A stretch of 64,000 bases of DNA from NCBI RefSeq assembly GCF_000295095.1, contig NZ_JH806632.1:586233-650232 (forward strand), given 5' to 3'. The notes below the pieces were generated by a model. It did not search any database, was not told the origin of the DNA, and saw only the letters and a list, made by a program, of their open reading frames with translations. A program made the position numbers and the translations under genes. Positions 4,569 to 19,592 of this stretch are shown in pieces. The DNA is from Actinomyces timonensis DSM 23838. Lineage in GTDB: Bacteria; Actinomycetota; Actinomycetes; Actinomycetales; Actinomycetaceae. Each line of letters starts with the position of its first letter. Within the stretch, counting starts at the first letter, position 1.

Positions 4569-5510
4569 TCAGCCAGCGAGGATGGCGGCGGCCGTGCGCG
4601 AATCGGTGACGACGGCGCTGGCGTACCCGGCGCCCAGGGCCACGCGCATCGGCAGCGCCTTGTCCTGGCCGTGGCCCACGAGGACGCGCCGGCCCGGGCC
4701 GGTGAGCGCCTCCAGGCCGATGGCGATGACGCGGTCCTCCACCTCGGGGATGACGGGCGCGCCGTGGGCGTCAACGAAGTGCGAGAAGAAGTCCGCCACG
4801 GCGCCCTTGGCGCGCAGCTGCTCCATCAGCCCCTCCTTGAGGTAGCCCGAGCGCACGAGGATGGAGTCGTCACGGATGGCGCCTGGCGAGTAGAGGATCG
4901 TGTCAGCGCTGGCGGCGTCGCGGAGGGTCTGGGCGATGGCCGGCTCCTGGCGCAGGCGCCGGGCCAGGTCGACGTCGCGCACGAGGGCGGGGGCCGGCAG
5001 GAGGCTGCCCATCCCCTGGCCCTTGCGGGCGATGAGGCTGATCGAGCGCATGACGACGTCGTCGTCATCGGAGCGGATGAGCCCGCCGAAGGCCTGGTAG
5101 ACCTTGAGACCGCTCGTCCAGCGGTCGGGCATCGCCTGGGCGACCGCGGCGATCGTGCGCCCCCAGGCCACGCCGAGGCTCGTCGGGCGGGGGCGCAGCC
5201 CGGTGAGGTAGTCGCCGGCCGCCGAGGCGACGACGGACCCGGCGGCGCCCGCCTCCTCCGGCGAGGCCACCACGATGGCGTCGACGACGTCGAAGGCGCC
5301 CCGGATCTGGTTCTCCAGGGAACGGTCGCGGGCATGCGGGTGGTTGATCGAGATGGTGATCATCCCGCAGTCGCGGGCCTCCTCCAGCAGCCGCCCGACG
5401 GTCCAGCGCGAGCACATGAGCCGATCGGCGATGGCGGCCTGCGTGAGGCGCTCGTAGTAGTAGAGCTCGGCGGCCCTCAGCATGAGGGCATCGCGCTCGG
5501 CGTCGCTCAT
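4569..5510 (-). CDS. SorC-family transcriptional regulator of the adjacent carbohydrate operon
   Basis: The 313-residue protein has an N-terminal helix-turn-helix (about 15-45: LTQAAIADRLMCSRWTVGRLL) and a C-terminal SorC sugar-phosphate-binding domain (SLGVAWGRTIAAVAQ, VYQAFGGL, ILYSPGAIRDDSILV). ATG at 5508-5510 is chosen because a GGAGG lies six bases upstream and the extension above it is not conserved-looking. It is the last gene of the seven-gene minus-strand operon, 144 bp after the AraB-like kinase, and the gap holds four 11-bp tandem repeats. EryD of erythritol operons belongs to this family, which fits a polyol-phosphate inducer, but the effector is unknown. Confidence 0.87.
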   Translation of the reverse strand: MSDAERDALMLRAAELYYYERLTQAAIADRLMCSRWTVGRLLEEARDCGMITISINHPHARDRSLENQIRGAFDVVDAIVVASPEEAGAAGSVVASAAGDYLTGLRPRPTSLGVAWGRTIAAVAQAMPDRWTSGLKVYQAFGGLIRSDDDDVVMRSISLIARKGQGMGSLLPAPALVRDVDLARRLRQEPAIAQTLRDAASADTILYSPGAIRDDSILVRSGYLKEGLMEQLRAKGAVADFFSHFVDAHGAPVIPEVEDRVIAIGLEALTGPGRRVLVGHGQDKALPMRVALGAGYASAVVTDSRTAAAILAG

Positions 5511-5593
5511 CGTCTTCCTCCCCAGGCGCTCGGGCGCTGCGCGGCCCGGCCTCACCGGTGCCGCGCAGCGCCCTCAGCATCTCCGCAGTGCCG

Positions 5594-5637
5594 CTGCGAT
5601 ATGACTGCGATCTCAGTGCGATCTGACTGCGATCTCA
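5594..5637. repeat. Four tandem 11-bp repeats upstream of the SorC regulator
   Basis: Consecutive units CTGCGATATGA, CTGCGATCTCA, GTGCGATCTGA and CTGCGATCTCA lie between the kinase stop and the regulator start. A period of 11 bp is close to one helical turn, so identical half-sites would face the same side of DNA, as expected for a cooperative operator. The position, about 84 bp upstream of the regulator ATG, suggests autoregulation or an internal promoter. Function is inferred. Confidence 0.8.
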
Positions 5638-5654
5638 CTGGCCGCCGGCCGGCG

Positions 5655-7373
5655 TCACTCGTCGCCGGCCCCCTCGGCCCGACGGCGCAGGGCGTCGGCG
5701 CGCAGCGCCTTGAGGGCGTGCATCGTCTCGTCTCCCCGCCCGAACAGGCCGTGCAGGTGGCGGTAGATCTCGTAGAGGCGATCGTACTGAACGGCCGCCT
5801 TCTCGTTGGGCTCGTAGACCTTCTCCGAGACACCTCCCATGGCGGTCGCCGCGGACGGCAGGTCCGGGTAGGCGCCCGCGGCGACGGCGGCGAAGATCGA
5901 CGAGCCGTGGGCCCCCGCCTGGATCGTGGAGGCGGTCAGCAGGCGCAGCCGCGTGATGTCGGCGTACATCTGCATGAGGAACTCGTCCTTGATGAGGCCG
6001 CCGGCCACGCGCACCTCGGTGACGGGCACGCCGTAGGCCTCGAAGTTCTCGATGATGACGCGCGCGCCGAAGGCGGTGGACTCCAGAAGCGCCCGGTACT
6101 GGTCCTCGGGGCGGGTCACGAGCGTCTGGCCGATCATGAGGCCGGTCAGCTGGGAGTCGACCAGCGGGGAGCGGTTGCCGTTCCACCAGTCGAGGGCCAC
6201 CAGGCCGTGCTCACCGACCTCCTGGTCCGCGGCCAGGCGGGCGAGGAGGGCGAAGATCGAGATGCCCTCGGACTCGGCCTGGATGAAGTAGGAGCGCGGC
6301 ACGTTGTTGTCGATGAACCAGGCGAAGGAGTCGCCCACGGCGGACTGCCCGGCCTCGTAGCCCCAGGTGCCCTCGGAGATGCCGCCGTCGACGACGCCGA
6401 AGACGCCCGGGACCTCCACGCACTCCTCGGCGGGCAGGACCCAGCAGGTCGAGGTGCCCAGGATCCCGGTGAGCTGGCCGGGGCGCACGGCGTTGACGGA
6501 GGCGGCGTGGACGTGGGCGTCGATGTTGCCCGCGGCCACGGGGGTGCCCTCGCGCAGCCCGAAGGCCTGGGCGTACTCGGCGGTGAGCCCGCCGACGGCC
6601 GATCCCAGGGCGGCGATCGGGTGGTTCATGCGGGTGGAGTAGACGTCGGCGAAGTCGGGGTTGAGGGCGCCCAGGAACTCCTCGGTCGGGTAGACGCCGT
6701 CCTGAAGCATCCGCTTGTAGCCGGAGTCGGAGGCCGAGTAGGCCAGGGTGCCGGTGAGCCGCCAGGTGAGCCAGTCGAGCATGTCGACGATCTCGCCGGT
6801 GGCGGCGTAGACGTCCGGGGCCTTCTCGAGGGTCTCCAGGGCCTTGGGCAGGAGCATCTCGGCGGACAGGATGCCGCCGTAGCGGGGCAGCCAGGCCTCG
6901 CCGCGCTTCTTGGCGAGCTCGACGATGCGGTCGGCCTGGCTCTGCGCGCCGTGGTGCTTCCACAGCTTGACGTAAGCGTGCGGGTTGTTCGCGAACTCCG
7001 GCTTCTCACACATGGGCACGCCGTCGGAGTCGGTGACGACGACGGTGGCGGAAGTGACGTCGAGCCCCACACCGATGATGTCGGCCCCGCGCACCCCGGA
7101 GGCGCGCACGGCGGCGGCGCTGGCGGCGCACATGGACTCCAGGTAGTCGCCGGGCACCTGGAGGGCGAACTCCGGGGGAAGCTCCCGGTTGTCCCCGGCG
7201 GTCAGGCGCCGGTCCATGATCGGGGTGGCGTACTCGCTCACGGCGTCGGCGAGGATCTCGCCGTCGGAGACCCGGGTGACGACGGCGCGCACGGACAGCG
7301 TGCCGAAGTCGAGGCCCAGGGTGTAGGTGCCCTCGGTGGCCGGGGCGGGGGGCGGGGTGTCGGTGGTCGTCAT
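5655..7373 (-). CDS. FGGY-family kinase, L-ribulokinase (AraB)-like
   Basis: ATP-dependent sugar kinase of 572 residues, the usual AraB length. The N-terminal phosphate loop is LGLDFGTLSVRAV (about 19-31). AraB-like stretches are FANNPHAYVKLWKHHGAQ, WLPRYGGILSAEMLLPKALE and IVDMLDWLTWRLTG. The C-terminal lobe has AGGLIKDEFLMQMYADI and AGAHGSSIFAAVAAG. ATG at 7371-7373 has AAGGAG upstream; an in-frame ATG 21 bases earlier overlaps that site and is rejected. AraA and AraD are absent, so arabinose breakdown is unlikely and the substrate may be another ketose or polyol. It is gene six of the operon, after a strong hairpin. Confidence 0.88.
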   Translation of the reverse strand: MTTTDTPPPAPATEGTYTLGLDFGTLSVRAVVTRVSDGEILADAVSEYATPIMDRRLTAGDNRELPPEFALQVPGDYLESMCAASAAAVRASGVRGADIIGVGLDVTSATVVVTDSDGVPMCEKPEFANNPHAYVKLWKHHGAQSQADRIVELAKKRGEAWLPRYGGILSAEMLLPKALETLEKAPDVYAATGEIVDMLDWLTWRLTGTLAYSASDSGYKRMLQDGVYPTEEFLGALNPDFADVYSTRMNHPIAALGSAVGGLTAEYAQAFGLREGTPVAAGNIDAHVHAASVNAVRPGQLTGILGTSTCWVLPAEECVEVPGVFGVVDGGISEGTWGYEAGQSAVGDSFAWFIDNNVPRSYFIQAESEGISIFALLARLAADQEVGEHGLVALDWWNGNRSPLVDSQLTGLMIGQTLVTRPEDQYRALLESTAFGARVIIENFEAYGVPVTEVRVAGGLIKDEFLMQMYADITRLRLLTASTIQAGAHGSSIFAAVAAGAYPDLPSAATAMGGVSEKVYEPNEKAAVQYDRLYEIYRHLHGLFGRGDETMHALKALRADALRRRAEGAGDE

Positions 7374-7420
7374 CGTCGTCGTGCTCCTTCGCATACAGGG
7401 TCTGTGGTTCGGGTGGAGGG

Positions 7421-7452
7421 GCCCGGCGCGGCCCCGCGGGGTCGCGCCGGGC
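7421..7452 (-). terminator. Strong hairpin between the AraM-like and AraB-like genes
   Basis: Ten-base arms GCCCGGCGCG (7421-7430) and CGCGCCGGGC (7443-7452) enclose a further self-complementary CCCCGCGGGG. There is no T-run, so it may be an RNA-stability or attenuation element within the operon rather than a full terminator. Confidence 0.55.
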
Positions 7453-7465
7453 CGGGCGGGACGCG

Positions 7466-8854
7466 TCAGTCCTGCTCCTTGTGGGGGTGGCGCCCCCAGT
7501 AGCCGTCCGCGCTGAAGAGGGCGTCGACGACGTCGTCGAGCAGCCCGAGGTCGGTCAGGGCGTCGAGGATCGTGTAGCGGGGCCGGATCATCTGCGCCTT
7601 GACGTGGGTGGCGCGGAAGCGGTCCATGTCGATCCCGATCATCTCGGGGTGGTAGGGGGCGCCCACGGCCTTGAGGCGGTCGGCCACCTCCTCGGGGGTC
7701 ATGAGCAGCGGGCGGACCCGCTCGACGACGCGCGGCCAGGCCTTCTTGATGAGGGCGATGCGCTCGCGCAGGGCGTCGCCGGTGAGGTTCTTGCCGACGG
7801 CGTGGCCGACGGCCTCCTGCGCGATGCGCGGGATGAGGGCCTCGCGCACGGCCGCCTCGATCTGCTCGTCGGTGCGGGCGCGCGCCACGACGTCGTCGGC
7901 GTCGATGGACTCCACGAAGTCGAGGCCGCGGTCGAGGATCTCCTGCCACATGGCGCACGAGGCGATGGTGCCGATCCCGACCTTCATGCCGTGCGACAGC
8001 GGAGGCTCCCAGTCCAGGCCGTGGCCCTCCATCTCCCACACGTGGGAGAACTGGTGGCCGGCGCCGGAGGCGGGGCGGGAGGACTGGGCGGCCTGCATGG
8101 CCAGGCCGGACATGATGTTGCCCTCGGCCAGGCCGCTGATCGCCTCGGCGTCGCCCGCGCCGATGCGCTCGGGGTCGGACAGGGCGTCGCGCAGCGGGCC
8201 CTGGACCAGGCCCCAGACGTAGTCGTCGATGGGCTCGATGCCGAGCTCGTCGGCGAGCACCCAGTCGGCGCCGGCGGGGACCTTCTCGATGAGGTCGCCG
8301 TAGCCGGTGGCGGTCAGGCGCTTGGGGGCGGCGGCGATGACGCCGAGGTCCGCCACGAGGCCCGCGGGCGCCGGGCAGTTGCGGGTGATCTTGAAGCCGT
8401 CCTTGGAGATCGAGGCGCCGAAGGACGCGTAGCCGTCCACGGAGGCGGCGGTGCACACGTTCATGTACGGCCGCTCGAGCTCACCCGAGGCCAGCTTGGC
8501 GATGTCGTTGAGCGTGCCCGAGGCGATGGAGCACACGATCGTGTCCTCCAGGGGCCGGATGTGCTCGCGCAGGATCTCGACGTTCTCGTAGCCGGCGTAG
8601 AGGGTGGGCGTGCCCGGGAAGATGTAGGGCTCGACGGCCTCCACCCCGGCGGCGGCCAGGGAGTCCACCACGGGCTGGCCCGCGGCGGCGAAGGTGTTCC
8701 CATCGGCGACGACGATGACGCGCTTGCCGGGGAAGAGGCGGGCGAAGAGGGGGCCCGCCTGGCCCAGGACGTCGTGGCCGAAGGCGATCTCCTTGGTGTC
8801 GGTCGCGGTGGCCAGGGCCTGGGTGATGAGGTCGGTGCCTGAGGGCTGTGTCAT
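7466..8854 (-). CDS. AraM-like NAD-dependent polyol-phosphate dehydrogenase (glycerol-1-phosphate dehydrogenase family)
   Basis: Metal-dependent dehydrogenase of the Fe-ADH_2 family (462 residues), related to B. subtilis AraM and archaeal glycerol-1-phosphate dehydrogenase. Visible landmarks are the nucleotide-binding segment VIVVADGNTFAAAG, SIASGTLNDIAKLAS (the GSGTxND-type loop), TAASVDGYASFGASISKDG, and metal-ligand candidates in GDLIEK, GAGHQFSHVWEMEGHGL and LSHGMKVGIGT. GGAAGG precedes the ATG. In this operon it probably oxidises a phosphorylated polyol made by a neighbouring FGGY kinase; true G1P dehydrogenase activity is the alternative. It lies 33 bp after the second kinase, in one transcription unit. 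Confidence 0.87.
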   Translation of the reverse strand: MTQPSGTDLITQALATATDTKEIAFGHDVLGQAGPLFARLFPGKRVIVVADGNTFAAAGQPVVDSLAAAGVEAVEPYIFPGTPTLYAGYENVEILREHIRPLEDTIVCSIASGTLNDIAKLASGELERPYMNVCTAASVDGYASFGASISKDGFKITRNCPAPAGLVADLGVIAAAPKRLTATGYGDLIEKVPAGADWVLADELGIEPIDDYVWGLVQGPLRDALSDPERIGAGDAEAISGLAEGNIMSGLAMQAAQSSRPASGAGHQFSHVWEMEGHGLDWEPPLSHGMKVGIGTIASCAMWQEILDRGLDFVESIDADDVVARARTDEQIEAAVREALIPRIAQEAVGHAVGKNLTGDALRERIALIKKAWPRVVERVRPLLMTPEEVADRLKAVGAPYHPEMIGIDMDRFRATHVKAQMIRPRYTILDALTDLGLLDDVVDALFSADGYWGRHPHKEQD

Positions 8855-8887
8855 GGTTGCTGCTTCCTTCCTGGGGTGCTCAGGAGT

Positions 8888-10450
8888 TCAGGCGAGGTGG
8901 TCGACCATCTCGTGGGAGAGGTCCCGCAGGCGCGGGTAGGTCTCCATGTACTTGTCGAGGTAGAACTGGTACTCCTCGTGGACCTCGGGGCGCGGCTCGA
9001 TGCGGTCGGTCTCGCGCACCATGTTGCGGGCGGCGTCCTGGATGGAGTGGTACTGCCCGGAGCCGACGGCGGCGAGCATGCACGAGCCCAGGACGACGGC
9101 GTCGCCGACCTCGGTCAGGGTGACGGGGACGCCGGTGACGTCGGCGTGCATCTGCATCCAGTCGCGGGACTTCGTGGCACCGCCGCAGGCGACGAGCTCG
9201 GTGGAGGCGAAGCCGGCGTCCTTGAAGGCCTTGAGCACGTGGGCGGTGCCGTAGCAGACGGATTCCTGGATCGCGCGGTAGAACTCCTCAGGCGTCGTGC
9301 CCAGGGTCAGGCCCCACACGATGCCGCGCGCCTTGGAGTCGGTGTACGGGGTGCGGTTGCCCTGGAAGTACTCGTTGATGATGAGGCCGTTGGAGCCGAC
9401 GGGCACGTTCGCGCTGCGCTCGTCGAGGATCTTGTAGGGGTTGTAGCCCAGGCGCTCGGCGGCGGCGGTGACGTCGCCGGCGAAGTTGTCCTTGAACCAC
9501 TTGAGCACGGAGCCCGAGGAGACCAGCCCGCCCTCGCAGGTGTACTGGCCGGGGATGACGCCGTCGGTGTAGCCGCCGAAGAAGCCCTTGCCGTGCAGGG
9601 GGTTGGGCGACTGGCCGGTGATGACGTGGGAGGAGCCGGTGATGACGGCGGTCTTGCCGGGCTCGACGACGCCCAGGCCGATCTGGCCCGCCCAGGCGTC
9701 CGGGCAGCCCTGCGCCACCGGGGTGCCGGGCAGCAGGCCGAGGTCCTTGGCGGCGGCGGTGGTCAGTCCGCCGACGGGCTCGCCGAGGTCGAGGATCCTC
9801 TCGGGGATCTTGTCGAAGACGTCGCCGCAGCCGATGTGCTCGTAGAACTCCACCGGCCAGCCGCCCTTGTCGCGGTTGTAGTACATGCGCAGCGCGGCGG
9901 AGTTGATGTTGAGAGTCCACTCGCCGGTGAGCTTGTAGTTGAGCCACTCGGGGGCGTCGACGAGCCGGTGCGCGGCCTTGTAGACCTCGGGCTCGTTCTC
10001 CTTGAGCCAGGCGGCCTTGAAGGGGTACCACTCCGCGGTGGCGCCCATGGTGCCGCCGCCGTTGTAGAGGCGGGCCCACTGGTCGATGGTCTCGGCTCGG
10101 GCGGCCTGCTCGGTGGCGCGCACGTCCATCCACATGATGGCAGGGCGCAGCTCGCGGCCATGGGCGTCCATGGCGACCACTGTCATGGTGGTGGCGTCGT
10201 ACGAGATGCCGGCGATGTGGCGACCGGGGATCCCGGTCTCGTTGAGGACCCGGTAGACGGAGGCCTTGAGGGCGTCCCACCAGTCCTCGGGGCTCTGCTC
10301 GGCCTGGCCGGGGCGGGGGTGGGTGGTGGTGTACGGGGTGGCGGCGAAGGCGATCGGGCGACCGGCGAGGTCGAAGATCGCGGCGCGGCAGGACTCCGTT
10401 CCGTAGTCGATGCCGAGCAGGTAGGGGCCTTCGTATCCGGGGCTGACCAT
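8888..10450 (-). CDS. FGGY-family carbohydrate/polyol kinase
   Basis: A second ATP-dependent kinase in the same operon, 520 residues. The N-terminal P-loop is LGIDYGTESCRAAIFDLAG (about 12-30), followed by the FGGY signature region ISYDATTMTVVAMDAHGREL and IMWMDVRATEQA. The C-terminal lobe has CGGATKSRDWMQMHADVTG and LGSCMLAAVGSG. It is clearly divergent from both the AraB-like kinase downstream and GlpK at 19.7-21.2 kb, so the operon carries two non-redundant kinases. GGAGA lies upstream of the ATG at 10448-10450. EryA-type erythritol kinases and pentitol kinases are FGGY proteins; which polyol or ketose is used cannot be read directly. Confidence 0.87.
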   Translation of the reverse strand: MVSPGYEGPYLLGIDYGTESCRAAIFDLAGRPIAFAATPYTTTHPRPGQAEQSPEDWWDALKASVYRVLNETGIPGRHIAGISYDATTMTVVAMDAHGRELRPAIMWMDVRATEQAARAETIDQWARLYNGGGTMGATAEWYPFKAAWLKENEPEVYKAAHRLVDAPEWLNYKLTGEWTLNINSAALRMYYNRDKGGWPVEFYEHIGCGDVFDKIPERILDLGEPVGGLTTAAAKDLGLLPGTPVAQGCPDAWAGQIGLGVVEPGKTAVITGSSHVITGQSPNPLHGKGFFGGYTDGVIPGQYTCEGGLVSSGSVLKWFKDNFAGDVTAAAERLGYNPYKILDERSANVPVGSNGLIINEYFQGNRTPYTDSKARGIVWGLTLGTTPEEFYRAIQESVCYGTAHVLKAFKDAGFASTELVACGGATKSRDWMQMHADVTGVPVTLTEVGDAVVLGSCMLAAVGSGQYHSIQDAARNMVRETDRIEPRPEVHEEYQFYLDKYMETYPRLRDLSHEMVDHLA

Positions 10451-10526
10451 CGTTGGTCTCCGTTCTGTGTCGTGCCTATGTCGTGGCGGTGGTGCGGTCG
10501 TGGTGGTGTGGGAGAGTCATGGGGAA

Positions 10527-11420
10527 TCAGGAGACGGGGTCGTTGTCCTCGCTCCAGCCGAGCTCGTCCCACAGCGCTGCGGGGATGAGGCGGTCGACGC
10601 GGTCGAGGATGAAGGTGGGCCGATCGGCGGGGTCGAGGGCCTGGGCCTCGGCGAGGGTGGACTCGCCGGTCAGGGGCATCGCCGAGCGCATGCCGGTGCG
10701 CACGGCCATCTGGATGTCGGTGCCGAGGCGGTCGCCGACCATCATGCAGCGCTCGGGGCGCACATCGAGGTCGCCGATGGCTGCCTGGAGCATCGAGGCG
10801 TTGGGCTTGCCGATGACGGTGCGGCAGGTGATGCCGGTGCAGGCCTCGATGGCGGCGATGATGGAAGCGCAGTCGGGCTCCCCGCGCCCTCCGGGGAAGG
10901 GGCAGAAGCGGTCGGGGTTGGTGGCGATGAGGAAGGCCCGCTTGTGGAACCAGATGGCGTCGAAGGCGATCTGGAGCTTGCGGTACTCGAAGGTGCGGTC
11001 GTAGGAGGCGATGACGATGTCGATCTCCTCGGGGTCCTCGCTCTGGGCGATGCCGGCCTCGGCCAGGGCCCGCTTGAGGGGCTCCTCGGCGATGGCGAAG
11101 ACGGTGGCATCGGGGTGGTTGGCCTTGAGCCAGCGCACGGTCGTGACCACCGTGTTGGCGATCTCCCCCACCGGTGTCGGCAGGCCGAGGCGCGCGAGCT
11201 TCTCGGCGTACTGGTCGGGGTCCTTGGTGGGGTTGTTGGACAGGAAGCGCACGGGGATGCCCCGGCGTCGGAGCTCGTTGATGAGGCGCTTCGCCCCGGG
11301 CAGGAAGTGATCACCGAGGTAGATGGTGCCGTCCATGTCGAAGACGTAGGCGTCGTAGAGCTCGGTCGGCCAGTCCTGGGCGGGCTCGGGGGCGGTGAGC
11401 GTGGGGCTCGTGGAACTCAT
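10527..11420 (-). CDS. HAD-superfamily phosphatase, NagD/AraL-like
   Basis: Small-molecule phosphatase of 297 residues. HAD motif I is FDMDGTIYLGD (about 29-39) with the nucleophile and acid/base Asp pair; motif II is FLSNNPTKD; the lysine motif is IGKPNASML; motif IV is MVGDRLGTDIQMA. The cap type places it with NagD and AraL. In B. subtilis the ara operon also pairs an AraL phosphatase with AraM, so this pairing is conserved even though araA and araD are missing here. A metabolite-repair or sugar-phosphate-relief role is likely. The first 20 residues are a variable Pro/Thr-rich tail. Confidence 0.87.
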   Translation of the reverse strand: MSSTSPTLTAPEPAQDWPTELYDAYVFDMDGTIYLGDHFLPGAKRLINELRRRGIPVRFLSNNPTKDPDQYAEKLARLGLPTPVGEIANTVVTTVRWLKANHPDATVFAIAEEPLKRALAEAGIAQSEDPEEIDIVIASYDRTFEYRKLQIAFDAIWFHKRAFLIATNPDRFCPFPGGRGEPDCASIIAAIEACTGITCRTVIGKPNASMLQAAIGDLDVRPERCMMVGDRLGTDIQMAVRTGMRSAMPLTGESTLAEAQALDPADRPTFILDRVDRLIPAALWDELGWSEDNDPVS

Positions 11421-11484
11421 GCGGGGCTTCCTGGAGTGTGCGGGCGGTTGGCGGATTGCGACGGCGGCGCGTGGGGGGCTTGGG

Positions 11485-11518
11485 GGTTGGGGGGACGGAG
11501 CGGGCCGTCCCCCAACCG
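11485..11518 (-). terminator. Intercistronic hairpin between membrane-protein and phosphatase genes
   Basis: Arms GGTTGGGGGGACGG and CCGTCCCCCAACC pair with one bulged base and a short loop. It lies just after the membrane-protein stop. With no clear T-tract it could partly terminate or stabilise mRNA, lowering expression of the downstream catabolic genes. Confidence 0.55.
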
Positions 11519-11527
11519 GGGCCGCGC

Positions 11528-12493
11528 TCAGACGGCGAGCAGGGCGATGTGGATGAGGGTGGTCATGATCCAGATCGTCCCGGCCGGCGGGTCGATGTGG
11601 GTGTCGCCGTAGTAGTAGGTCAGGCGCGCGATGACGAACTCGGCGACGAAGCCGGACATGATGCCGAAGACGATGCCGACCACCAGGGCGAGCCAGGCGT
11701 TGTCGGTGGCGAGCCAGAACTGGACGGCCGCCAGAGCGGCGATGATGGTGATGTGGTGGGTGACGTTGACCTTCTGGCCGGCCACGAGCAGGAAGATGCA
11801 CAGGGCGGAGAAGGCGAAGGGCAGGGCCTGGGCGCTGTTGACCACCGCCGTCGCCGCCGTCTCGGGCAGGTTGGCCTTGGCGTAGGAGGCCAGGACGATC
11901 CCCACGCCGGAGGCCATGAAGGCGGCGCCGAAGGCGACGGTGCCGAGCTGACCCGGCGTCTCCTGGTGGTCGAGCCAGCGGTGCGTGCCCTCGGGGGCGG
12001 TCGGGCCGTGGAAGATGCCGGTGGAGCCGAAGGCCAGGCGGGCGACGCAGCCGGAGATGAAGACGGTCAGGGCCACGGAGTCGGTGTGGGAGCCGAACCA
12101 CGGGATGAGGGCGATGAGGCGCTGGACGACCATGCCGGCCACGCCGAATCCGGCGGCGAGCCACAGGACCGTCGGGTCCTTGAGGCTGCCGAGCGGGGTA
12201 TCGATATCCCGCCCTGTGGCGAGTAATCCCTTCTTGGCGGAGTAGGCCGAGGCGGCGGCCGCCCCGGCGAAGGCGACGTGCGGGCCGAAGGCCGGGCCGA
12301 AGGCGACGTAGTCGAAGAAGAAGGTGCTGCCGGTGGTGGCGGCGATGCCGAAGCCGGTCAGGATCATCACGCCGGTGAAGCCGAAGGCGTTGTTCGGGCC
12401 CACGATGGCGCCGATGATGCCTCCCACGCAGGCTGCCAGGAGCCAGAACAGGTCCAGGTTGTCCAGCAGCGGCATTGTCATGTCAGGTGTCAT
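11528..12493 (-). CDS. Unrecognised polytopic membrane protein, transporter candidate of the operon
   Basis: A 321-residue protein made almost entirely of hydrophobic segments; I count about nine membrane helices (for example LFWLLAACVGGIIGAIVG, TVLWLAAGFGVAGMVVQ, VALTVFISGCVARLAFG, LGTVAFGAAFMASGVGIVL). Gly-rich stretches such as VGPNNAFGFTGVMILTGFG and the loop YYYGDTHIDPPAG may be family signatures. It has no ABC, PTS, MFS, TRAP or aquaporin motif that I recognise. It is the only membrane protein in a seven-gene catabolic operon, second gene after the isomerase, so substrate uptake is the natural guess. ATG at 12491-12493 follows AAGGAC; ATG eight bases into the protein-coding start is less likely. 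Confidence 0.8.
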   Translation of the reverse strand: MTPDMTMPLLDNLDLFWLLAACVGGIIGAIVGPNNAFGFTGVMILTGFGIAATTGSTFFFDYVAFGPAFGPHVAFAGAAAASAYSAKKGLLATGRDIDTPLGSLKDPTVLWLAAGFGVAGMVVQRLIALIPWFGSHTDSVALTVFISGCVARLAFGSTGIFHGPTAPEGTHRWLDHQETPGQLGTVAFGAAFMASGVGIVLASYAKANLPETAATAVVNSAQALPFAFSALCIFLLVAGQKVNVTHHITIIAALAAVQFWLATDNAWLALVVGIVFGIMSGFVAEFVIARLTYYYGDTHIDPPAGTIWIMTTLIHIALLAV

Positions 12494-12562
12494 GCTTCGT
12501 CCTTGAAGTGTTGGGTGGTTGGGCTGCGCTGTGTCAGAGCGCTCGGGAGGGTGGTTGAGGGG

Positions 12563-13021
12563 TCAGGCGCCGGTCTCGTAGGACTCCAGGGCGGCCACCT
12601 TGCGGGCCGAGGGCGACGAGGTGTCGAAGGTGTAGCCGAGCCACTCGCGCACGAGCCTGCGGGCGAGCTCGATGCCGATGACCCGCTGCCCGAGGGTGAG
12701 GACCTGCGCGTTGTTGGACTTGATGAGGCGCTCGACGGAGAAGGAGTCGTGGGCGACGCTGGCGCGGATACCGGGGACCTTGTTCGCGCAGATCGCCATG
12801 CCCATGCCGGTGCCGCAGAAGAAGAGGCCGCGGTCGGCGCCGCCGTCGGCGATGATGCGCGCGCCCTTGATGGCCACGTGGGGGTAGTCGGTGTGCTCGT
12901 CGGCGGAGACCCCGACGTCGATGACCTCGTCGACCCGGGGGTCTGCCTCGAGGTCCTTCTTCAGCGTCTCCTTGTAGTCGACGGCGGCGTCGTCACAGGC
13001 GACGACGATCCTGTATCCCAT
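12563..13021 (-). CDS. RpiB/LacAB-family isomerase, likely of the erythrulose-4-phosphate (DerI/EryI) branch
   Basis: A 152-residue aldose-ketose phosphate isomerase. The active-site cysteine loop is [20 protein letters not shown], with Cys near 69. Two histidines of authentic RpiB are replaced: CDH near the N-terminus is CDD, and the RQHN segment is [12 protein letters not shown]. From memory, the SNNAQ form is typical of the tetrose-phosphate isomerases DerI and EryI, which turn erythrulose 4-phosphate into erythrose 4-phosphate. GGAGG precedes the ATG at 13019-13021. It is the first gene of the operon, divergent from transketolase, an enzyme that consumes erythrose 4-phosphate. Ribose-5-phosphate isomerase is the alternative. 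Confidence 0.86.
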
Positions 13022-13148
13022 ATGCGGCCTCCTTGCTCGCCCGCGCCGTTCCCTGGGGTGCGTGCCGCGGTTCGGCGCGCGCAAGGGGACGCGGTGGTTC
13101 CATGCGTGTTTCTTATTCTGCTGAACGACGGCGCATTTGACGATCGCC

Positions 13149-13260
13149 TGCACACATGAGCAGTTGCCTCGTGAGCCCTGCCACAGAACGGCGGACCAGT
13201 GCTATCGTGCTCCGCCTCACATCCACGCCGACTCCCCTCGGCCCTACGCACATATGAGCA
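13149..13260. promoter_or_regulatory. Paired candidate operator sites between the operon and transketolase
   Basis: The 337-bp divergent gap (13022-13358) contains no gene. CACACATGAGCA (13151-13162) and CACATATGAGCA (13249-13260) are two near-identical sites 98 bp apart in the same orientation. One lies close to the isomerase side and one toward transketolase, so one regulator, probably the operon's SorC protein, could control both directions. No further core-promoter assignment is secure. Confidence 0.55.
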
Positions 13261-13358
13261 TCGAGGCGCTGGCGCTCTGCGCCGTGACGCGCTTCGTTAG
13301 TGTGTGACAGACAAGCAACACCGCCCCAGCCCACGGACCGCCGTCCTAGGAGGATCGC

Positions 13359-15449
13359 ATGACCACACACGCGCTGCTGACCGACCTCGATCACAAGGCC
13401 ATCGCCGTGTCCAAGGCCCTGGCGGCCGACGCCGTCGAGAAGGCCGGCTCCGGGCACCCCGGAACCCCCATCTCCCTGGCAGGCGTCGCCTACCTGCTCT
13501 ACCAGAAGGAGATGGCCTGCGACCCCGCCGACTCCAACTGGCTGGGCCGCGACCGCTTCGTGCTCTCCATCGGGCACGCCTCCCTCCTGCAGTACATCCA
13601 GCTGGCCCTGGCCGGCTACGGACTGGAGATCTCGGATATCGCCGCGCTGCGCACCTGGGGCTCCCTGACCCCGGGCCACCCCGAGTTCGGGCACACCGCC
13701 GGCGTCGAGACCACCACCGGCCCGCTGGGCGCCGGCATCTCGAACGCGGTGGGCATGGCCATGGCCGCGCGCCGTGAGCACGGCCTCTTCGACGCCGCCA
13801 CCCCGGCAGGCGAGTCCGTCTTCGACCACTACGTCTACACGATCGTGGGCGACGGCTGCCTCCAGGAGGGCGTCGCCTCCGAGGCCGCCTCGCTCGCGGG
13901 CACCCAGCAGCTGGGCAACCTCATCGCCATCTACGACGACAACGACATCTCCATCGAGGGCAACACGGACATCGCCTTCACCGAGGACCCCTCGGCACGC
14001 TTCGCCGCCTACGGCTGGCAGGTGCTCGACGTCGACTGGAAGGCCGGCGGCCAGTACCACGAGGACTACGACGCCCTGCACGCCGCCCTCGTCGAGGCGC
14101 GCGCCGACACCACCCGGCCCACCCTCATCCGCCTGCGCACGATCATCGCCTGGCCCTCCCCCACCAAGCAGGGCGACGAGTCCTCGCACGGCGCCAAGCT
14201 CGGCGCCGAGGAGGTCGCCGGGCTCAAGAAGGCCCTCGGGCTCGACCCGGAGGCCGACTTCCAGGTGCCCGCCGAGGTCCTGGAGCACACCCGCTCCCAG
14301 GCCGCCGAGCGCGCGGCCGCCCTGCGCGCCGACTGGGACGCCCGCTTCGCCGCCTGGAGCGCCGCCGCCCCGGAGGGCGCCGCGCTGCTGGAGCGCCTGC
14401 GCGCCGGCGAGCTGCCCGAGGGCCTCGATGCCGCGCTCCCGCGCTGGGAGCTCGGCGACGCCGTCGCCACCCGATCCGCCTCCGGCAAGACGCTCACCGC
14501 CCTGGCGCCCGTGGTGCCCGAGCTGTGGGGCGGCTCGGCGGACCTGGCCGGGTCGAACAACACGACGATGGCCGGGGAGCCGTCCTTCCTGCCCGCCTCC
14601 CTTGCGGTGGGCGAGGGCGACGGCCCCTATGGGCGGACCATCCACTTCGGCGTGCGCGAGCACGCGATGGGCTCGATCCTCAACGGCATCGCCCTGGACG
14701 GCCTGACCCGCCCCTACGGCGGCACCTTCATGGTGTTCTCCGACTACATGCGCCCCGCCGTGCGCCTCGCGGCGCTCATGGGGGTCGGCTCGGTGTTCGT
14801 CTGGACGCACGACTCCATCGGCGTGGGTGAGGACGGCCCCACCCACCAGCCCATCGAGCACCTGGCAGCGCTGCGCGCCATTCCGGGACTGGCCGTGGTG
14901 CGGCCCGGCGACGCCAACGAGACCGCCGCGGCCTGGGCGGAGATCCTGCGCCGTCGCCGCGAGCCGGCGGGCATCATCCTGTCGCGCCAGAACCTCACGG
15001 TCAACGCCTCCCCCGAGGCGGCCGCCGAGGGCGTGCGCCGGGGGGCCTACGTGCTCGCCGACGCCGTCGACGCCTCCGGGGCGAAGGCGGCCCCCGCCGT
15101 CGTCATCATCGCCACCGGATCCGAGGTGGGCGTGGCCATGGCCGCGCGCGAGCGCCTGGGCGCGGCGGGGACGCCGACCCGCGTCGTCTCGGCGCCCTGC
15201 CTGGAGTGGTTCGCCGAGCAGGACGAGGCCTACCGCGCCTCCGCGCTTCCCGAGGGCGCCGTGCGGGTCTCCGTGGAGGCCGGCATCGCGATGGGCTGGC
15301 GCGAGATCGTGGGCGACTCCGGGGCGATCGTCTCCCTCGAGCACTTCGGCGCCTCCGCGTCCGGGGCGCGCCTGTTCGAGGAGTACGGCTTCACCGGCGA
15401 GCACGTCGCCGAGGTCGCCTCCCAGGCCCTGGCCCGCGCCCGCGCCTGA
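13359..15449 (+). CDS. tkt: Transketolase
   Basis: Thiamine-diphosphate enzyme of the non-oxidative pentose phosphate pathway, moving two-carbon units between ketose and aldose phosphates. The 696-residue protein has full family length: ThDP pyrophosphate domain (DAVEKAGSGHPGTPISLAG; GDGCLQEGVASEAASLAG with the metal site; IYDDNDISIEG), pyrimidine domain (GVREHAMGSILNGIAL, THDSIGVGEDGPTHQPIEHL) and C-terminal domain. AGGAGG precedes the ATG. Its divergence from the kinase/isomerase operon suggests a dedicated transketolase for that pathway, though I cannot tell whether another copy exists elsewhere in the genome. Confidence 0.95.
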   Translation: MTTHALLTDLDHKAIAVSKALAADAVEKAGSGHPGTPISLAGVAYLLYQKEMACDPADSNWLGRDRFVLSIGHASLLQYIQLALAGYGLEISDIAALRTWGSLTPGHPEFGHTAGVETTTGPLGAGISNAVGMAMAARREHGLFDAATPAGESVFDHYVYTIVGDGCLQEGVASEAASLAGTQQLGNLIAIYDDNDISIEGNTDIAFTEDPSARFAAYGWQVLDVDWKAGGQYHEDYDALHAALVEARADTTRPTLIRLRTIIAWPSPTKQGDESSHGAKLGAEEVAGLKKALGLDPEADFQVPAEVLEHTRSQAAERAAALRADWDARFAAWSAAAPEGAALLERLRAGELPEGLDAALPRWELGDAVATRSASGKTLTALAPVVPELWGGSADLAGSNNTTMAGEPSFLPASLAVGEGDGPYGRTIHFGVREHAMGSILNGIALDGLTRPYGGTFMVFSDYMRPAVRLAALMGVGSVFVWTHDSIGVGEDGPTHQPIEHLAALRAIPGLAVVRPGDANETAAAWAEILRRRREPAGIILSRQNLTVNASPEAAAEGVRRGAYVLADAVDASGAKAAPAVVIIATGSEVGVAMAARERLGAAGTPTRVVSAPCLEWFAEQDEAYRASALPEGAVRVSVEAGIAMGWREIVGDSGAIVSLEHFGASASGARLFEEYGFTGEHVAEVASQALARARA

Positions 15450-15587: not shown

Positions 15588-16796
15588 TTATGGGGTGGAG
15601 GCGAGCTCGAGAACGGCGCGGGCGGTGGCGTCGTCGACGACGAGATCCGTGGCCACCCGCGCCCGCAGCGCCGCCAGCAGGGCGGGGGCCTTCGCCCTGC
15701 CCGCCACCACGCACAGGCGCCTCGGGATGCGGGCGAGCTGGGCGGGGGTGGGCCCGGTGGCCCGCGCGTTGAGGGCGATATCGCTCCACGAGCCATCGGC
15801 GCGCAGGAGCACCGTGCACACGTCGCCCACCACCCGCTCGCGGCGCAGCGCCACACGGTCGGCGCGGCTGACGTGCCCGCCCTCGTAGACCTGCGAGGGC
15901 AGGACGCCCTGGACCACCGACCCGACACCGAAGACCGCCAGGTCGGCGCTGCGCGCCAGCGCCAGCACCCGGCGCACGGAGCGCTCGGACCACATCGCCT
16001 CGCGCGTGGCCACATGGTCGAAGAAGGCCGGGACGGGGAAGGCCACCACGCGCGCGCCCAGCGCCTCGCCGACCCTCGAGAGCACCTCGCCGGCGCTGGG
16101 CCCCATCTCCATCGGGTCCGTGGCGCCGTTGAGCTGGACCACCGTCAGCCCCGGCACGGGCCGCGCGGGCAGGGCCGCGCTCACCTCTGACATGGTGGTG
16201 CCCCAGGCCACGCCGACGACGACGCCCCGGCCGCCCGCGCTCAGCGCGCCGCTCTGGTCGCTCGGGACGGCTGAGCCACCGGAGCCATCCGGGCCGCCCG
16301 GAGCGCCCGAGTCCCTCGGGCCGGCGGCCCCCGCGGAGCCGGCCTCCCCGGGCCCGCCGTCCCCGACCCCCTCAGCGCCGCCCCCGACGCCCGGGGCACC
16401 CGGCGCCTCGGCGGCCCGGCGCTCGGCCAGATCGGCGGCGAGCTCGACCATCCGGGCCGCGGCGACACCCGCCACCTGCTGGAGCCGATGGATCTCCGTG
16501 GCGCCCTCGCGCACGGGAACGATCTGGGCGCGCACCCCGAACAGGGACGCGAAGCGCCCCTCGATGGAGCCGGCGCCGCCGGGCTGGGTGAGCTCGATGC
16601 GCACGATGCCGGTGGCGCGGGCGCGCTCGAGGAGCCGGGAGACGGTCGAGCGCGACACCCCCAGGTGGTGGGCGATCACCTCCATGGTCTCGCCCTGCAC
16701 GTAGTACATCGACGCCGCCTCATACGCCCTGAGCAGCGCGGAATTCTCGCCCGAACCGTTGGGATTCCGCGGAGAATCGTCACTCCGAGTGGTCAT
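15588..16796 (-). CDS. SorC-family regulator divergent from glpD, with an internal low-complexity insert
   Basis: The helix-turn-helix is at about 35-65 (TMEVIAHHLGVSRSTVSRLL) and is followed by a SorC effector domain (VVVGVAWGTTMSEVSAALP, VVQLNGATDPMEM, FGVGSVVQG). Between about residues 125 and 190 the effector domain is interrupted by a Gly/Ala/Pro/Ser-rich stretch, unusual for this family. ATG at 16794-16796 has GGAGG upstream; the earlier in-frame ATG has none. It is divergent from glpD with a 16-bp inverted repeat between them, so it likely controls glpDFK and itself in response to a glycerol- or polyol-derived phosphate. 402 residues, long because of the insert. Confidence 0.85.
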   Translation of the reverse strand: MTTRSDDSPRNPNGSGENSALLRAYEAASMYYVQGETMEVIAHHLGVSRSTVSRLLERARATGIVRIELTQPGGAGSIEGRFASLFGVRAQIVPVREGATEIHRLQQVAGVAAARMVELAADLAERRAAEAPGAPGVGGGAEGVGDGGPGEAGSAGAAGPRDSGAPGGPDGSGGSAVPSDQSGALSAGGRGVVVGVAWGTTMSEVSAALPARPVPGLTVVQLNGATDPMEMGPSAGEVLSRVGEALGARVVAFPVPAFFDHVATREAMWSERSVRRVLALARSADLAVFGVGSVVQGVLPSQVYEGGHVSRADRVALRRERVVGDVCTVLLRADGSWSDIALNARATGPTPAQLARIPRRLCVVAGRAKAPALLAALRARVATDLVVDDATARAVLELASTP

Positions 16797-16820
16797 GTTC
16801 CTCCGCCTCGCGCACCGATT

Positions 16821-16870
16821 CTGCACGTTCGTGCAGACTGCTTGCCCATCCTCTCACAACCCTCAACGAT
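16821..16870. promoter_or_regulatory. Candidate regulator site and glpD promoter
   Basis: CTGCACGTTCGTGCAG (16821-16836) is an inverted repeat with 7-base arms, the form expected for a SorC operator, 25 bp upstream of the regulator start. Just beyond it, TTGCCC (16842-16847) and AACGAT (16865-16870) are separated by 17 bp and could be the glpD -35 and -10. A bound protein directly upstream of the -35 would suit activation. Inference from sequence only. Confidence 0.55.
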
Positions 16871-16947
16871 GTGTCGTAGGGAACAACCGCCACCCTGACA
16901 GCCGCGCCCGAGACGCAGCCGCTCACCGTCGAGACCGAGGAGCCACC

Positions 16948-18720: not shown

Positions 18721-18725
18721 TCAGC

Positions 18726-18757
18726 GCGTGCGCCTGCTCAACCGAGCAGGCGCACGC
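18726..18757 (+). terminator. Strong hairpin between glpD and glpF
   Basis: Fourteen-base perfect arms GCGTGCGCCTGCTC and GAGCAGGCGCACGC with a four-base loop AACC. No T-run follows. It could act as a terminator, or as an mRNA processing or stability element that sets glpF-glpK levels apart from glpD. Confidence 0.65.
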
Positions 18758-18820
18758 CCCTCTCCCCGCCCCTGATAACCCTCACATGGCACGTTGACGT
18801 GCAGAAAGCGATTCCCTCCC

Positions 18821-19585
18821 ATGAGCCTGGCTCACATCTTCTTCTCGGAGTTCCTCGGAACTGCGATTCTCCTCCTCCTCGGTGCTGGCGTCGTCGCCAC
18901 GAACCTCCTGCCCAAGTCCAAGGGCAAGGGCGGCGGCTGGCTGCTCATCAACTGGGGATGGGGCCTGGCGGTGTTCGCCGGCGTCTACGTCGCCTACGAC
19001 ACCGGTGGCCACCTCAACCCCGCGGTGACCATCGCCAAGGTCGTCGGCCACATGTTCGACTCCGGCGTCACCCTCAACGGCCCGGCCCTGGATAACGGCG
19101 GCATCGCGGTGAGCGGCACCAACGTGCTCGTCTACATCGTCGCCCAGTTCCTGGGAGCCTTCGTCGGAGCCGTCCTGTGCTGGCTGACCTTCAAGCAGCA
19201 CTTCGATGAGGACTGTGACCCGGCCCTCAAGCTCGGCGTCTTCTCCACCGCCCCCGAGATCCGCTCCTACGGCTGGAACACACTGACCGAGGCCATCGGC
19301 ACCGCCGTCCTCATCATCTGGGTCTTCGTCTCCGGGCACACCCAGAGCGCCATCGGCCCGCTCGGCGTGGCCCTCATCATCGTGGTCATCGGCACCTCGC
19401 TGGGCGGCCCCACCGGGTACGCCATCAACCCCGCCCGTGACCTCGGCCCGCGCGTCGCCCACGCCGTGCTCCCCATCAAGGGCAAGGGCGGCTCCGACTG
19501 GGCCTACTCCTGGGTCCCGGTGGTCGGCCCGATCCTGGGCGCCATCGCCGGTACGGTGATCGTCTTCGCGGGCGGCCTCGCCTGA
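18821..19585 (+). CDS. glpF: Glycerol uptake facilitator (aquaglyceroporin)
   Basis: Channel protein of the MIP family, 254 residues with six membrane spans. Both half-helix signatures are present: HLNPAVTIAKV and INPARDLGPR. The Asp after the second NPAR is typical of glycerol channels rather than water-only aquaporins. ATG at 18821 is chosen because MSLAHIFFSEFLGTAILLL starts directly at the first membrane helix; an in-frame TTG at 18794 would add nine residues. No strong ribosome binding site is visible. It lies between glpD and glpK, with hairpins on both sides. Confidence 0.94.
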   Translation: MSLAHIFFSEFLGTAILLLLGAGVVATNLLPKSKGKGGGWLLINWGWGLAVFAGVYVAYDTGGHLNPAVTIAKVVGHMFDSGVTLNGPALDNGGIAVSGTNVLVYIVAQFLGAFVGAVLCWLTFKQHFDEDCDPALKLGVFSTAPEIRSYGWNTLTEAIGTAVLIIWVFVSGHTQSAIGPLGVALIIVVIGTSLGGPTGYAINPARDLGPRVAHAVLPIKGKGGSDWAYSWVPVVGPILGAIAGTVIVFAGGLA

Positions 19586-19592
19586 TCCTCGC

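Follow-up and report, generated by a model that had tools for sequence, protein, structure and literature searches.

A gene cluster of actinomycetes and propionibacteria that is probably for the use of erythritol and related sugar alcohols

Introduction

Which substrate is handled by the seven genes that stand divergent from the transketolase gene of Actinomyces timonensis DSM 23838? The window analyzed here is a 64-kb stretch of this genome. A first-pass annotation had proposed a phosphorylative route for C4 or C5 polyols that is unlike eryABCD and feeds a dedicated transketolase, in an organism lacking araA and araD. The phosphorylative route and its connection to transketolase are retained below, while the dedicated role of the transketolase and the absence of araD are given up. 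Judged by its genes, the cluster probably serves actinomycetes and propionibacteria in the use of erythritol and related sugar alcohols.

Layout of the locus

Open reading frames and profile searches confirmed all eight genes where the first-pass annotation had placed them (Table 1), and the seven-gene operon that it described stands. The minus-strand order is rpiB, membrane protein, HAD-IIA phosphatase, FGGY kinase, AraM-like dehydrogenase, araB and SorC regulator; all are co-directional, with intergenic gaps of about 33–144 bases, and divergent from transketolase. Between 4300 and 15700, no sigma-70-type promoter was predicted and one terminator was found (2.1 in shuffles). The 64-kb window contained no tRNA gene and no known RNA family at gathering thresholds. 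The second candidate regulator site of Table 1 also occurs upstream of rpiB in Pauljensenia hongkongensis. The genes glpD, glpF and glpK adjoin the set in the window and in three other genomes of the genus (G033, G004 and G036).

Table 1. Features of the A. timonensis locus, in window positions, with proposed roles
Feature	Position	Strand	Evidence
Transcriptional regulator of the SorC family, sugar-binding; probably controls the operon in the manner of EryD	4569-5510	-	Pfam Sugar-bind 5.5e-48
Second FGGY kinase, 572 aa, AraB type within the ribulokinase family; would serve a pentitol/pentulose branch	5655-7373	-	TIGR01234, NF003154, tree
AraM-like dehydrogenase (Fe-ADH_2), 462 aa; would oxidize polyol phosphates with NAD	7466-8854	-	Pfam Fe-ADH_2 5.6e-29
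FGGY kinase, uncharacterised subfamily; proposed tetritol (erythritol) kinase	8888-10450	-	FGGY_N + FGGY_C, own clade
Phosphatase of the HAD-IIA class, NagD/AraL-type; would relieve an excess of sugar phosphate	10527-11420	-	TIGR01460
Membrane protein of a family that Pfam does not model; candidate transporter of polyols	11528-12493	-	no profile match
RpiB-type sugar-phosphate isomerase; proposed EryI/DerI-like role	12563-13021	-	TIGR02133
Candidate regulator site GCACACATGAGC	13150-13161		rpiB-tkt intergenic region, 5/5 aligned genomes of genus
Candidate regulator site GCACATATGAGC, near-palindrome	13248-13259		4/5 aligned genomes of genus
Transketolase; entry point to pentose phosphate pathway	13359-15449	+	TIGR00232, 751 bits (cut-off 682.25)

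The divergent transketolase gene was the single match in its own genome. The description of a dedicated transketolase is wrong, this being the genome's sole copy.

Identity of the encoded proteins

The FGGY kinase has 25.7% identity to EryA of Rhizobium leguminosarum (E = 1e-14) and falls in its own clade with its cassette orthologues, apart from EryA, which forms a long row in that tree. Both results rule out membership of EryA. The protein reaches the cut-off of none of the 12 NCBIfam models listed and is nearer to AraB than to GlpK, both in identity and in the tree. The second kinase that the first-pass annotation had recognized is indeed of the AraB type. With a query that lacked its first 56 residues, it exceeds the cut-offs of both ribulokinase models, TIGR01234 (586.5 bits against 583.25) and NF003154 (605.9 against 428), and it groups with Escherichia coli AraB at 100/100. 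E. coli AraB is said to phosphorylate ribitol and L-arabitol as well.

With respect to the AraBAD arabinose pathway, AraB is present in the window and AraA is lacking. A search of the genome gave no araA match; the same search recovered the gene from 5 of 14 controls, which included E. coli and B. subtilis. This part of the first-pass claim holds. The other part does not: an AraD-type epimerase gene lies at 573.9–574.7 kb of the contig (G000:C1), about 12 kb before the window. Its product is 64.7% identical to the AraD of locus L076, which passes an L-ribulose-5-phosphate 4-epimerase subfamily model.

The AraM-like profile matches solved glycerol-1-phosphate (G1P) dehydrogenases, with 9h4x as the best (3.5e-46). 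Residues D140, H267, H271 and H288, which we take to be metal ligands, are kept in 20/20 aligned AraM-like rows and align with Asp and His of 9h4x. Since the score against the G1P dehydrogenase equivalog was 178.2 bits with a cut-off of 413, that assignment is rejected and the protein should not be called a G1P dehydrogenase. There is no EryB flavin dehydrogenase (GlpD-like) in the operon; the nearby GlpD stands with glpF and glpK. An AraM-type enzyme in the place of EryB, as first proposed, agrees with this finding and with the Fe-ADH_2 match of Table 1. Two further absences from the operon were also correctly noted. No ABC transporter is encoded there, and neither is EryH; a genome search and a tree identified one triose-phosphate isomerase (TIM) in the genome, of the housekeeping kind.

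RpiB passes the actinobacterial Rpi model TIGR02133 (179.1 bits against 168.2), fails the D-erythrulose-4-phosphate isomerase (DerI) model (138.2 against 240) and is 40% identical to R. leguminosarum EryI. The phosphatase exceeds the TIGR01460 cut-off (111.2 bits against 100.15); AraL, its namesake, has a housecleaning role. The SorC regulator, with 27.5% identity to R. leguminosarum EryD, carries the Sugar-bind domain expected of the regulator of an eryABCD-type pathway. For the membrane protein, no Pfam family was found at 1e-3, no NCBIfam family at 1e-5 and no PDB match up to E = 10. The best Pfam E-value among 24 homologues was 0.032, and an internal repeat is weak (hhalign probability 5.9%).

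Recurrence across genomes

All seven genes recur with the transketolase in four other genomes of the genus (G033, G004, G036 and G032), each with the SorC regulator at the operon end; therefore the arrangement is not due to chance. The first-pass annotation had anticipated a conserved set, and it is found across Actinomycetaceae and Propionibacteriaceae. The best 80 named loci from a search with the FGGY kinase were surveyed. Kinase, phosphatase and AraM-like gene occur together in 55 of these 80, and in 46 of the 55 the latter two both lie within 1.5 kb of the kinase. The membrane protein is found in 42/80 and AraD in 20/80; of 10 genomes that bear the set, two gave no match to AraD. EryA and EryC were the best match for no gene in the 80 loci. 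EryB-like genes are present in four (two Rubrobacteraceae and two actinobacterial MAGs), DHAK-family genes in ten, and two RpiB-like genes share one stretch in two loci (L088 and L116). In Acidipropionibacterium jensenii DSM 20535, the set is accompanied by ZnADH, DHAK, AraD and TKT genes. For the plasmid collection, where six matches were examined among 40 listed of 1132, only Rubrobacter carried most of the set. A Shinella plasmid has a kinase of 40% identity in a polyol-type region with an EryB-like gene and a TpiA gene; the TIM adjoining the EryB-like gene falls with E. coli TpiA in a nine-row tree.

Propionibacteria and growth on polyols

Propionibacterium freudenreichii DSM 20271T carries, in a row, a DHAK-family gene, an EryH-type TIM, DeoR, RpiB, the membrane protein, NagD, FGGY kinase, AraM, AraB and TKT. 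Gene by gene, the set is 68–82% identical to the Cutibacterium or window query. The nine-row tree joins the TIM to R. leguminosarum EryH with support of 100/100, both members of this pair being among its four long rows, and the genome has a second TIM besides it.

This strain is described as growing on erythritol and adonitol, and a 2015 study records that 21/21 P. freudenreichii strains ferment both (PMC4437456). As far as the available text of that study goes, no erythritol genes were found, and a locus of two araB genes, araM and araL was filed under arabinose (PMC4437456). By content and place, we take this locus to be the same gene set. The strains of Acidipropionibacterium covered by an excerpted source, A. 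jensenii included, are said there to ferment erythritol, adonitol, and L- and D-arabitol. Ancrocorticia populi sk1b4T, which has the kinase, phosphatase, AraM, AraB and membrane protein with no RpiB found at the locus, is listed as unable to use i-erythritol and adonitol, although the panel in question also scores glucose as negative. Arcanobacterium haemolyticum 11018T is likewise listed as negative for erythritol and adonitol, the gene set having been seen in a different strain, ET43. Since the phenotyped species are few and related, the link with polyol growth is correlative. Among the matches listed from the open literature, no title or abstract connects this gene set with erythritol. Further sources cited, as excerpts, are PMC3035375, PMC6612551, PMC6920887, PMC2909200, PMC4619572 and PMC3245297.

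Proposed pathway

From gene content, conservation, kinase lineage and the EryH-type, DHAK-family and AraD genes that accompany the set in some relatives, we infer every substrate, direction, transport step and regulatory step that follows. The locus is read as a regulated catabolic operon for short polyols, with erythritol as the main route and a probable pentitol side branch, feeding transketolase; the probability of this reading is put at about 0.55. Erythritol would enter through the membrane protein and be phosphorylated by the FGGY kinase, probably to D-erythritol 4-phosphate, and the AraM-like NAD enzyme would oxidize the phosphate ester to an erythrulose phosphate. The product would be L-erythrulose 1-phosphate if the site and handedness of G1P dehydrogenase are kept, or D-erythrulose 4-phosphate if C2 is oxidized. 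RpiB, assisted where necessary by triose-phosphate isomerase or an enzyme of the EryH type, would lead to D-erythrose 4-phosphate for use by the divergent transketolase. On the side branch, AraB would phosphorylate a pentulose or a pentitol such as ribitol or L-arabitol, and the resulting phosphate would reach D-xylulose 5-phosphate via AraD or D-ribose 5-phosphate via RpiB. The phosphatase may clear excess sugar phosphate and SorC may sense an intermediate.

The operon reading is supported by the occurrence of the same gene set in an erythritol-using propionibacterium, for whose species the erythritol genes went unfound in the available text of the 2015 study. Also in its favour are the polyols fermented by Acidipropionibacterium, the AraA, AraD, DHAK-family and EryB-like counts of the 80 loci, and the position of the sole transketolase. 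Several observations count against it: RpiB passes the ordinary Rpi model only, the window genome has one housekeeping TIM, A. populi and A. haemolyticum 11018T are negative for both polyols, AraD was not matched in every set-bearing genome, the EryH pair of the TIM tree is made of long rows and the Shinella TIM falls outside it, and an EryH-type gene lies near the kinase in only 1 of the 80 best loci.

A more specific version is tentative and somewhat doubtful as a whole. Enzyme work of 1968 on propionibacteria reportedly described an erythritol route in P. pentosaceum, presumably a synonym of A. acidipropionici, with L-erythrulose 1-phosphate as an intermediate. EC 2.7.1.27 is said to have been defined on P. 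pentosaceum with D-erythritol 4-phosphate as the product. The cluster might be the genetic basis of that pathway and a mirror of the Brucella route: a non-EryA FGGY kinase would act on the other end of erythritol to give D-erythritol 4-phosphate, an enzyme of the archaeal-type G1P dehydrogenase family, with the handedness to match, would give L-erythrulose 1-phosphate directly, and the membrane protein would found a new polyol transporter family. By stereochemistry, the AraM-type enzyme could make this product; were it to do so directly, EryB and the epimerase EryC would not be needed. One paper, as excerpted, lists Brucella-type EryA under EC 2.7.1.27 with D-erythritol 4-phosphate, which misfits the mirror image. 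The later naming, in which the EryC substrate is D-erythrulose 1-phosphate, is followed here (PMC10733421).

Alternative readings

An unlikely alternative is that pentitols (ribitol, L-arabitol) alone are used. Both kinases would act on C5 polyols or pentuloses, AraM would give pentulose phosphates, and RpiB and AraD would give ribose 5-phosphate and xylulose 5-phosphate. This agrees with the ribose-5-phosphate isomerase model passed by RpiB, with the AraD gene found in 19 of the 33 AraB loci among the best 80, and with the adonitol fermentation attributed to the same propionibacteria; however, AraB is missing from the stretch covered in 24 of the 55 loci that combine the kinase with the phosphatase and the AraM-like gene, and the EryH-type TIM, DHAK-family and EryB-like genes of some relatives point to tetritols.

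It is improbable that the set is linked to glycerol, the kinase making sn-glycerol 1-phosphate and AraM dihydroxyacetone phosphate as a mirror of the adjacent glp operon. While the kin of AraM are G1P dehydrogenases and glp genes adjoin in four genomes of the genus, RpiB and transketolase would have no place, the kinase lies closer to AraB than to GlpK, and of the best 80 loci 6 have a GlpD-type gene close to the kinase and 5 a GlpK-type gene. Slightly less probable again is a relation to the arabinose genes araB-araL-araM of Bacillus, of which the set would be a variant; the P. freudenreichii locus bearing these names was annotated that way in 2015. The araB, araL and araM namesakes are all present, and an araB from another P. 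freudenreichii locus, in pieces, is 46–53% identical to that of the window, but araA has no match in the genome and is found in 0 of the 80 best loci. Least probable is polyol-phosphate synthesis that serves as a redox sink or supplies envelope polymers, with AraM reducing and the phosphatase freeing the polyol; known AraM/G1P dehydrogenases work in the reducing direction and the phosphatase is present in 62/80 best loci, but two ATP-dependent kinases and a SorC regulator would seem to fit poorly.

Significance

If the operon reading is true, a pathway so far characterized only through its enzymes would gain genes, both in dairy propionibacteria and in relatives such as Cutibacterium and Actinomyces, and erythritol and ribitol use would be easier to predict from genomes. 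The AraM/G1P dehydrogenase family would extend to sugar-alcohol catabolism, a candidate transporter family would be added and an arabinose annotation corrected. P. freudenreichii, a food bacterium, would be the best test organism.

Comparison with known systems

The eryABCD, EryH and EryI names used for the R. leguminosarum pRL12 locus are presumably correct, being assigned from gene order where the record gives product names. This system shares with the window an FGGY kinase, an RpiB-type isomerase, a SorC-type regulator and, by proposal, erythrose 4-phosphate as the end. The window kinase belongs to another FGGY clade, and its operon lacks EryB, EryC, EryH and an ABC transporter while adding the AraM-type dehydrogenase, AraB, the phosphatase and the adjoining transketolase. 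Bacillus subtilis has the gene order araB, araL, araM, and AraB, an AraL-type phosphatase and an AraM-type dehydrogenase are common to both sets; the window lacks araA and adds a second kinase, RpiB and the new membrane protein.

The tetritol route of EltD, LerK, LerI and DerI is reportedly at home in Mycobacterium smegmatis. In its available description, DerI provides the D-erythrulose 4-phosphate isomerase step and a dehydrogenase acts before the kinase (PMC10733421); the window instead encodes an AraM-type enzyme alongside FGGY kinases. In P. freudenreichii, steps resembling those of LerK and LerI may fall to the products of the DHAK-family and EryH-type genes. The araB-araB-araM-araL locus of that species bears the arabinose label and, in the available text, no link to erythritol (PMC4437456). 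The erythritol/adonitol/L-arabitol locus of Sinorhizobium meliloti is built of eryA, lalA-rbtABC and ABC transporter genes rather than of AraM and AraB genes, and as described there a single locus with one kinase serves both C4 and C5 polyols (PMC3599248).

Operon organization and conservation

The first-pass annotation described a polyol operon divergent from a transketolase gene. All of its genes were located with the content and orientation described, separated by gaps of about 33 to 144 bases, and 337 bases separate rpiB from the start of the transketolase on the opposite strand. The operon is real and conserved. The seven genes and the transketolase are all present in four further genomes of the genus (G033, G004, G036 and G032).

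Features of the Actinomyces timonensis window and of two other loci in its genome (window positions unless a contig is named)
Feature	Position	Strand	Content or remark
Polyol operon	13021 down to 4569	minus	rpiB, membrane protein, HAD-IIA phosphatase, FGGY kinase, AraM-like dehydrogenase, araB, SorC regulator
Candidate 12-base site GCACACATGAGC	13150		between rpiB and transketolase; kept in 5/5 genus genomes aligned
Candidate 12-base site GCACATATGAGC	13248		between rpiB and transketolase; kept in 4/5 genus genomes aligned
Glycerol operon	15588-21184		SorC-type regulator, glpD, glpF, glpK; adjoins polyol operon
Consecutive genes	24050-34525		lactate permease, Lut-type iron-sulfur proteins, DeoR regulator, mannitol-dehydrogenase-family protein, FMN-dependent dehydrogenase
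L056	G000:C1 570-581 kb (about 5-16 kb before window)		XylB-like kinase, DhaK/DhaL-type genes, AraD, SorC regulator; by eye, MFS transporter, decarboxylase-like and amidohydrolase-like genes
L055, second polyol-type locus	G000:C1 150-158 kb		FGGY kinase, zinc dehydrogenase, DeoR, class II aldolase (PSSE motif), sodium-symporter-like protein (by eye), GpsA-like pieces matched in separate stretches

The set is patchy inside the genus, with the membrane protein in 8 of 37 genomes, A. timonensis included, and in none of the other 22 genomes of the same search. AraM-like matches (E 1e-60 or better) were found in 61 of 213 genomes of the organism's family and in 83 of 198 of the family of a Cutibacterium genome, counts that reach down to paralogues of about 38-50% identity and so give a maximum for the operon.

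Some members of the genus show the set decaying or split. One locus (L049) keeps fragments of rpiB and the FGGY kinase, another (L051) has AraM in two pieces, and in genome G024 (L050, L160) the rpiB-membrane-phosphatase-FGGY genes are separated from AraM, AraB and GpsA-like genes. Partial sets at L049-L051 adjoin glp genes, and the glp neighbourhood is also kept in G033, G004 and G036. The G032 locus diverges from the window as a mosaic (FGGY kinase 94%, membrane protein 57% and AraB 77% identical), hinting at gene exchange.

Distribution among FGGY kinase loci

Named genomes were scanned with the FGGY kinase, the best 80 of 132 relatives were kept, and gene content was scored by tblastn with identity thresholds set by the analyst; 14 of these loci span less than 12 kb, where absences may reflect contig ends. 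Among these best 80, the phosphatase was present in 62, an AraM-like gene in 60, RpiB in 47, the membrane protein in 42, AraB in 33, transketolase in 22, AraD in 20 and AraA in none. The FGGY kinase, phosphatase and AraM-like gene co-occur in 55 loci, and in 46 of these the latter two are both no more than 1.5 kb from such a kinase; no AraB was found in the locus stretch examined for 24 of the 55. RpiB, the membrane protein and AraB are also present in 26 of the 80, and transketolase in addition in 12. EryB-like genes occur in 4 loci and dihydroxyacetone-kinase-family (DHAK-family) genes in 10. Full or partial sets are carried by Cutibacterium avidum and namnetense, Acidipropionibacterium thoenii and jensenii, Propionibacterium australiense and acidifaciens, Varibaculum, Mobiluncus, Trueperella and Schaalia, and more distantly by Rubrobacter.

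A GpsA-like NAD dehydrogenase lies near these kinases in 26 of the 80 loci (e.g. L084:1616-2704). Both of two examples scanned fell below the glycerol-3-phosphate dehydrogenase cut-offs, and the enzyme might act on mirror-image polyol phosphates. Plasmid 2 of Rubrobacter radiotolerans (L137) bears a polyol super-cluster of transketolase, three FGGY kinases, DHAK-family, phosphatase, AraM-like, RpiB, GpsA-like and GlpD/EryB-like genes. In two alphaproteobacterial loci (L140, L142), distant FGGY kin (about 40%) stand beside 2-oxoacid-dehydrogenase-type genes, an ABC transporter and SDR enzymes.

Protein families and candidate regulatory sites

The FGGY kinase failed to reach the cut-off of any of the 12 NCBIfam models matched and is 25.7% identical to Rhizobium leguminosarum EryA. 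In a 29-row tree, in which EryA is a long row, the kinase and its orthologues form their own clade inside a larger group with AraB and away from EryA. NCBIfam models and the tree both place AraB in the ribulokinase family. From profile matches, the AraM-like protein groups with glycerol-1-phosphate dehydrogenases and has retained the Asp and His residues of that family in all 20 rows, yet its score is far short of the equivalog cut-off. RpiB shares 40% identity with EryI but passes the ordinary actinobacterial Rpi model. The membrane protein matched no Pfam family, NCBIfam family or PDB chain; roughly eight stretches of it are hydrophobic, its internal repeat is weak, and H246, H247, E285, H299 and D301 are among its invariant residues (24 rows).

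With 0.07 matches expected, a generalised pattern of the 12-base sites gave 3, falling on 2 sites, and none elsewhere in the window, a count that is partly circular since the pattern was drawn from the rpiB-transketolase region itself. A stricter pattern with one mismatch gave 2 matches, and 8 of 100 shuffles reach as many. One copy precedes rpiB in Pauljensenia hongkongensis (L060), and another lies past the SorC gene in G036. As none was found in the remaining loci scanned, among them L161 of the same genus, the sites represent a candidate operator limited to a few close relatives.

Propionibacterial carriers and phenotypes

In Propionibacterium freudenreichii DSM 20271T, genes for a DHAK-family protein, a protein like triose-phosphate isomerase (TIM), DeoR, RpiB, the membrane protein, phosphatase, FGGY kinase, AraM-like protein, AraB and transketolase follow one another in one direction. 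The TIM-like protein paired with R. leguminosarum EryH (100/100) apart from actinobacterial housekeeping isomerases, in a nine-row tree with four long rows that include both members of the pair; it also passes the NCBIfam triose-phosphate isomerase model (299.4 bits vs 293), and the genome has a second TIM. The TIM beside an EryB-like gene in Shinella grouped with E. coli TpiA in the same tree.

Erythritol and adonitol are reported to support growth of DSM 20271T (PMC4619572) and to be fermented by all 21 P. freudenreichii strains of one study (PMC4437456). The latter study assigned an araB-araB-araM-araL locus to arabinose and reported finding no genes for erythritol. From its content and place, we take that locus to be the set. 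Tested Acidipropionibacterium strains, A. jensenii included, are reported to ferment erythritol, adonitol and L- and D-arabitol (PMC6920887); in both A. jensenii DSM 20535 and A. thoenii DSM 20276 the set is accompanied by AraD, transketolase, a zinc alcohol dehydrogenase and a DHAK-family gene.

Other phenotypes count against the proposal. In Ancrocorticia populi sk1b4T the locus combines the kinase with the phosphatase, AraM, AraB and the membrane protein, and no RpiB was found there; this strain is reported negative for i-erythritol and adonitol, with glucose also negative in that panel. Both polyols likewise test negative in A. haemolyticum 11018T; the strain in which the set was observed is a different one, ET43.

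Proposed pathway

The gene content fits a route in which two ATP-dependent kinases, a polyol-phosphate-type dehydrogenase, an isomerase and transketolase would feed polyols into the pentose phosphate pathway. The first-pass idea of a polyol route finds partial support, and two of its arguments needed correction. The transketolase is not dedicated, being the only one in this high-GC genome (2.93 Mb, 4 contigs). Of araA and araD, both claimed absent, AraA indeed has no match in the genome. An AraD sharing 64.7% identity with that of cassette locus L076 is present about 12 kb before the window, with a XylB-like kinase, an MFS-type transporter and a DhaK gene as neighbours.

Of ten set-bearing genomes chosen by the analyst, eight gave a match to AraD at E 1e-20 or better; two of these are Cutibacterium genomes whose top hit, at 52% identity, could be a different class II aldolase. 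The absence of a match in the remaining two of the ten counts against the pathway. AraB and AraD without AraA suggest entry from pentitols or pentuloses, not arabinose. A single transketolase reaction uses erythrose 4-phosphate together with xylulose 5-phosphate, which would link this branch to a tetritol branch.

All substrates are inferred. P. freudenreichii, the EryH-type gene next to its set, and the EryB-like and DHAK-family genes of other loci make erythritol the strongest candidate. In D-erythritol 4-phosphate, by the Fischer convention, the phosphate-adjacent carbon shares its handedness with that of sn-glycerol 1-phosphate, and oxidation there yields L-erythrulose 1-phosphate, a compound reportedly named in the title of a 1968 study of P. 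pentosaceum by Wawszkiewicz. The FGGY-type kinase would form D-erythritol 4-phosphate, the AraM-like enzyme would convert it to L-erythrulose 1-phosphate, and isomerases would carry this to erythrose 4-phosphate. As an alternative to isomerisation, cleavage of erythrulose 1-phosphate to formaldehyde and dihydroxyacetone phosphate is described as suggested for erythritol catabolism in P. pentosaceum (PMC10733421); the operon offers no explanation for such a cleavage.

For the isomerisation route, LerI and DerI are reported to convert L-erythrulose 1-phosphate to erythrose 4-phosphate, with EryC required only when starting from the D-form (PMC10733421). A TIM search and tree identified no EryH-type gene in the A. 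timonensis genome; AraM may instead oxidise C2, or triose-phosphate isomerase or RpiB may take that step, and TpiA and LerI are said to have possible activities in common (PMC10733421). The operon would represent an altered form of phosphorylative polyol catabolism and provides a testable claim on an old propionibacterial pathway. Compared with the known erythritol pathway, whose EryA a 2011 survey of the kinase family detected only in Alphaproteobacteria (PMC3245297), passage through L-erythrulose 1-phosphate would explain the missing EryB and EryC.
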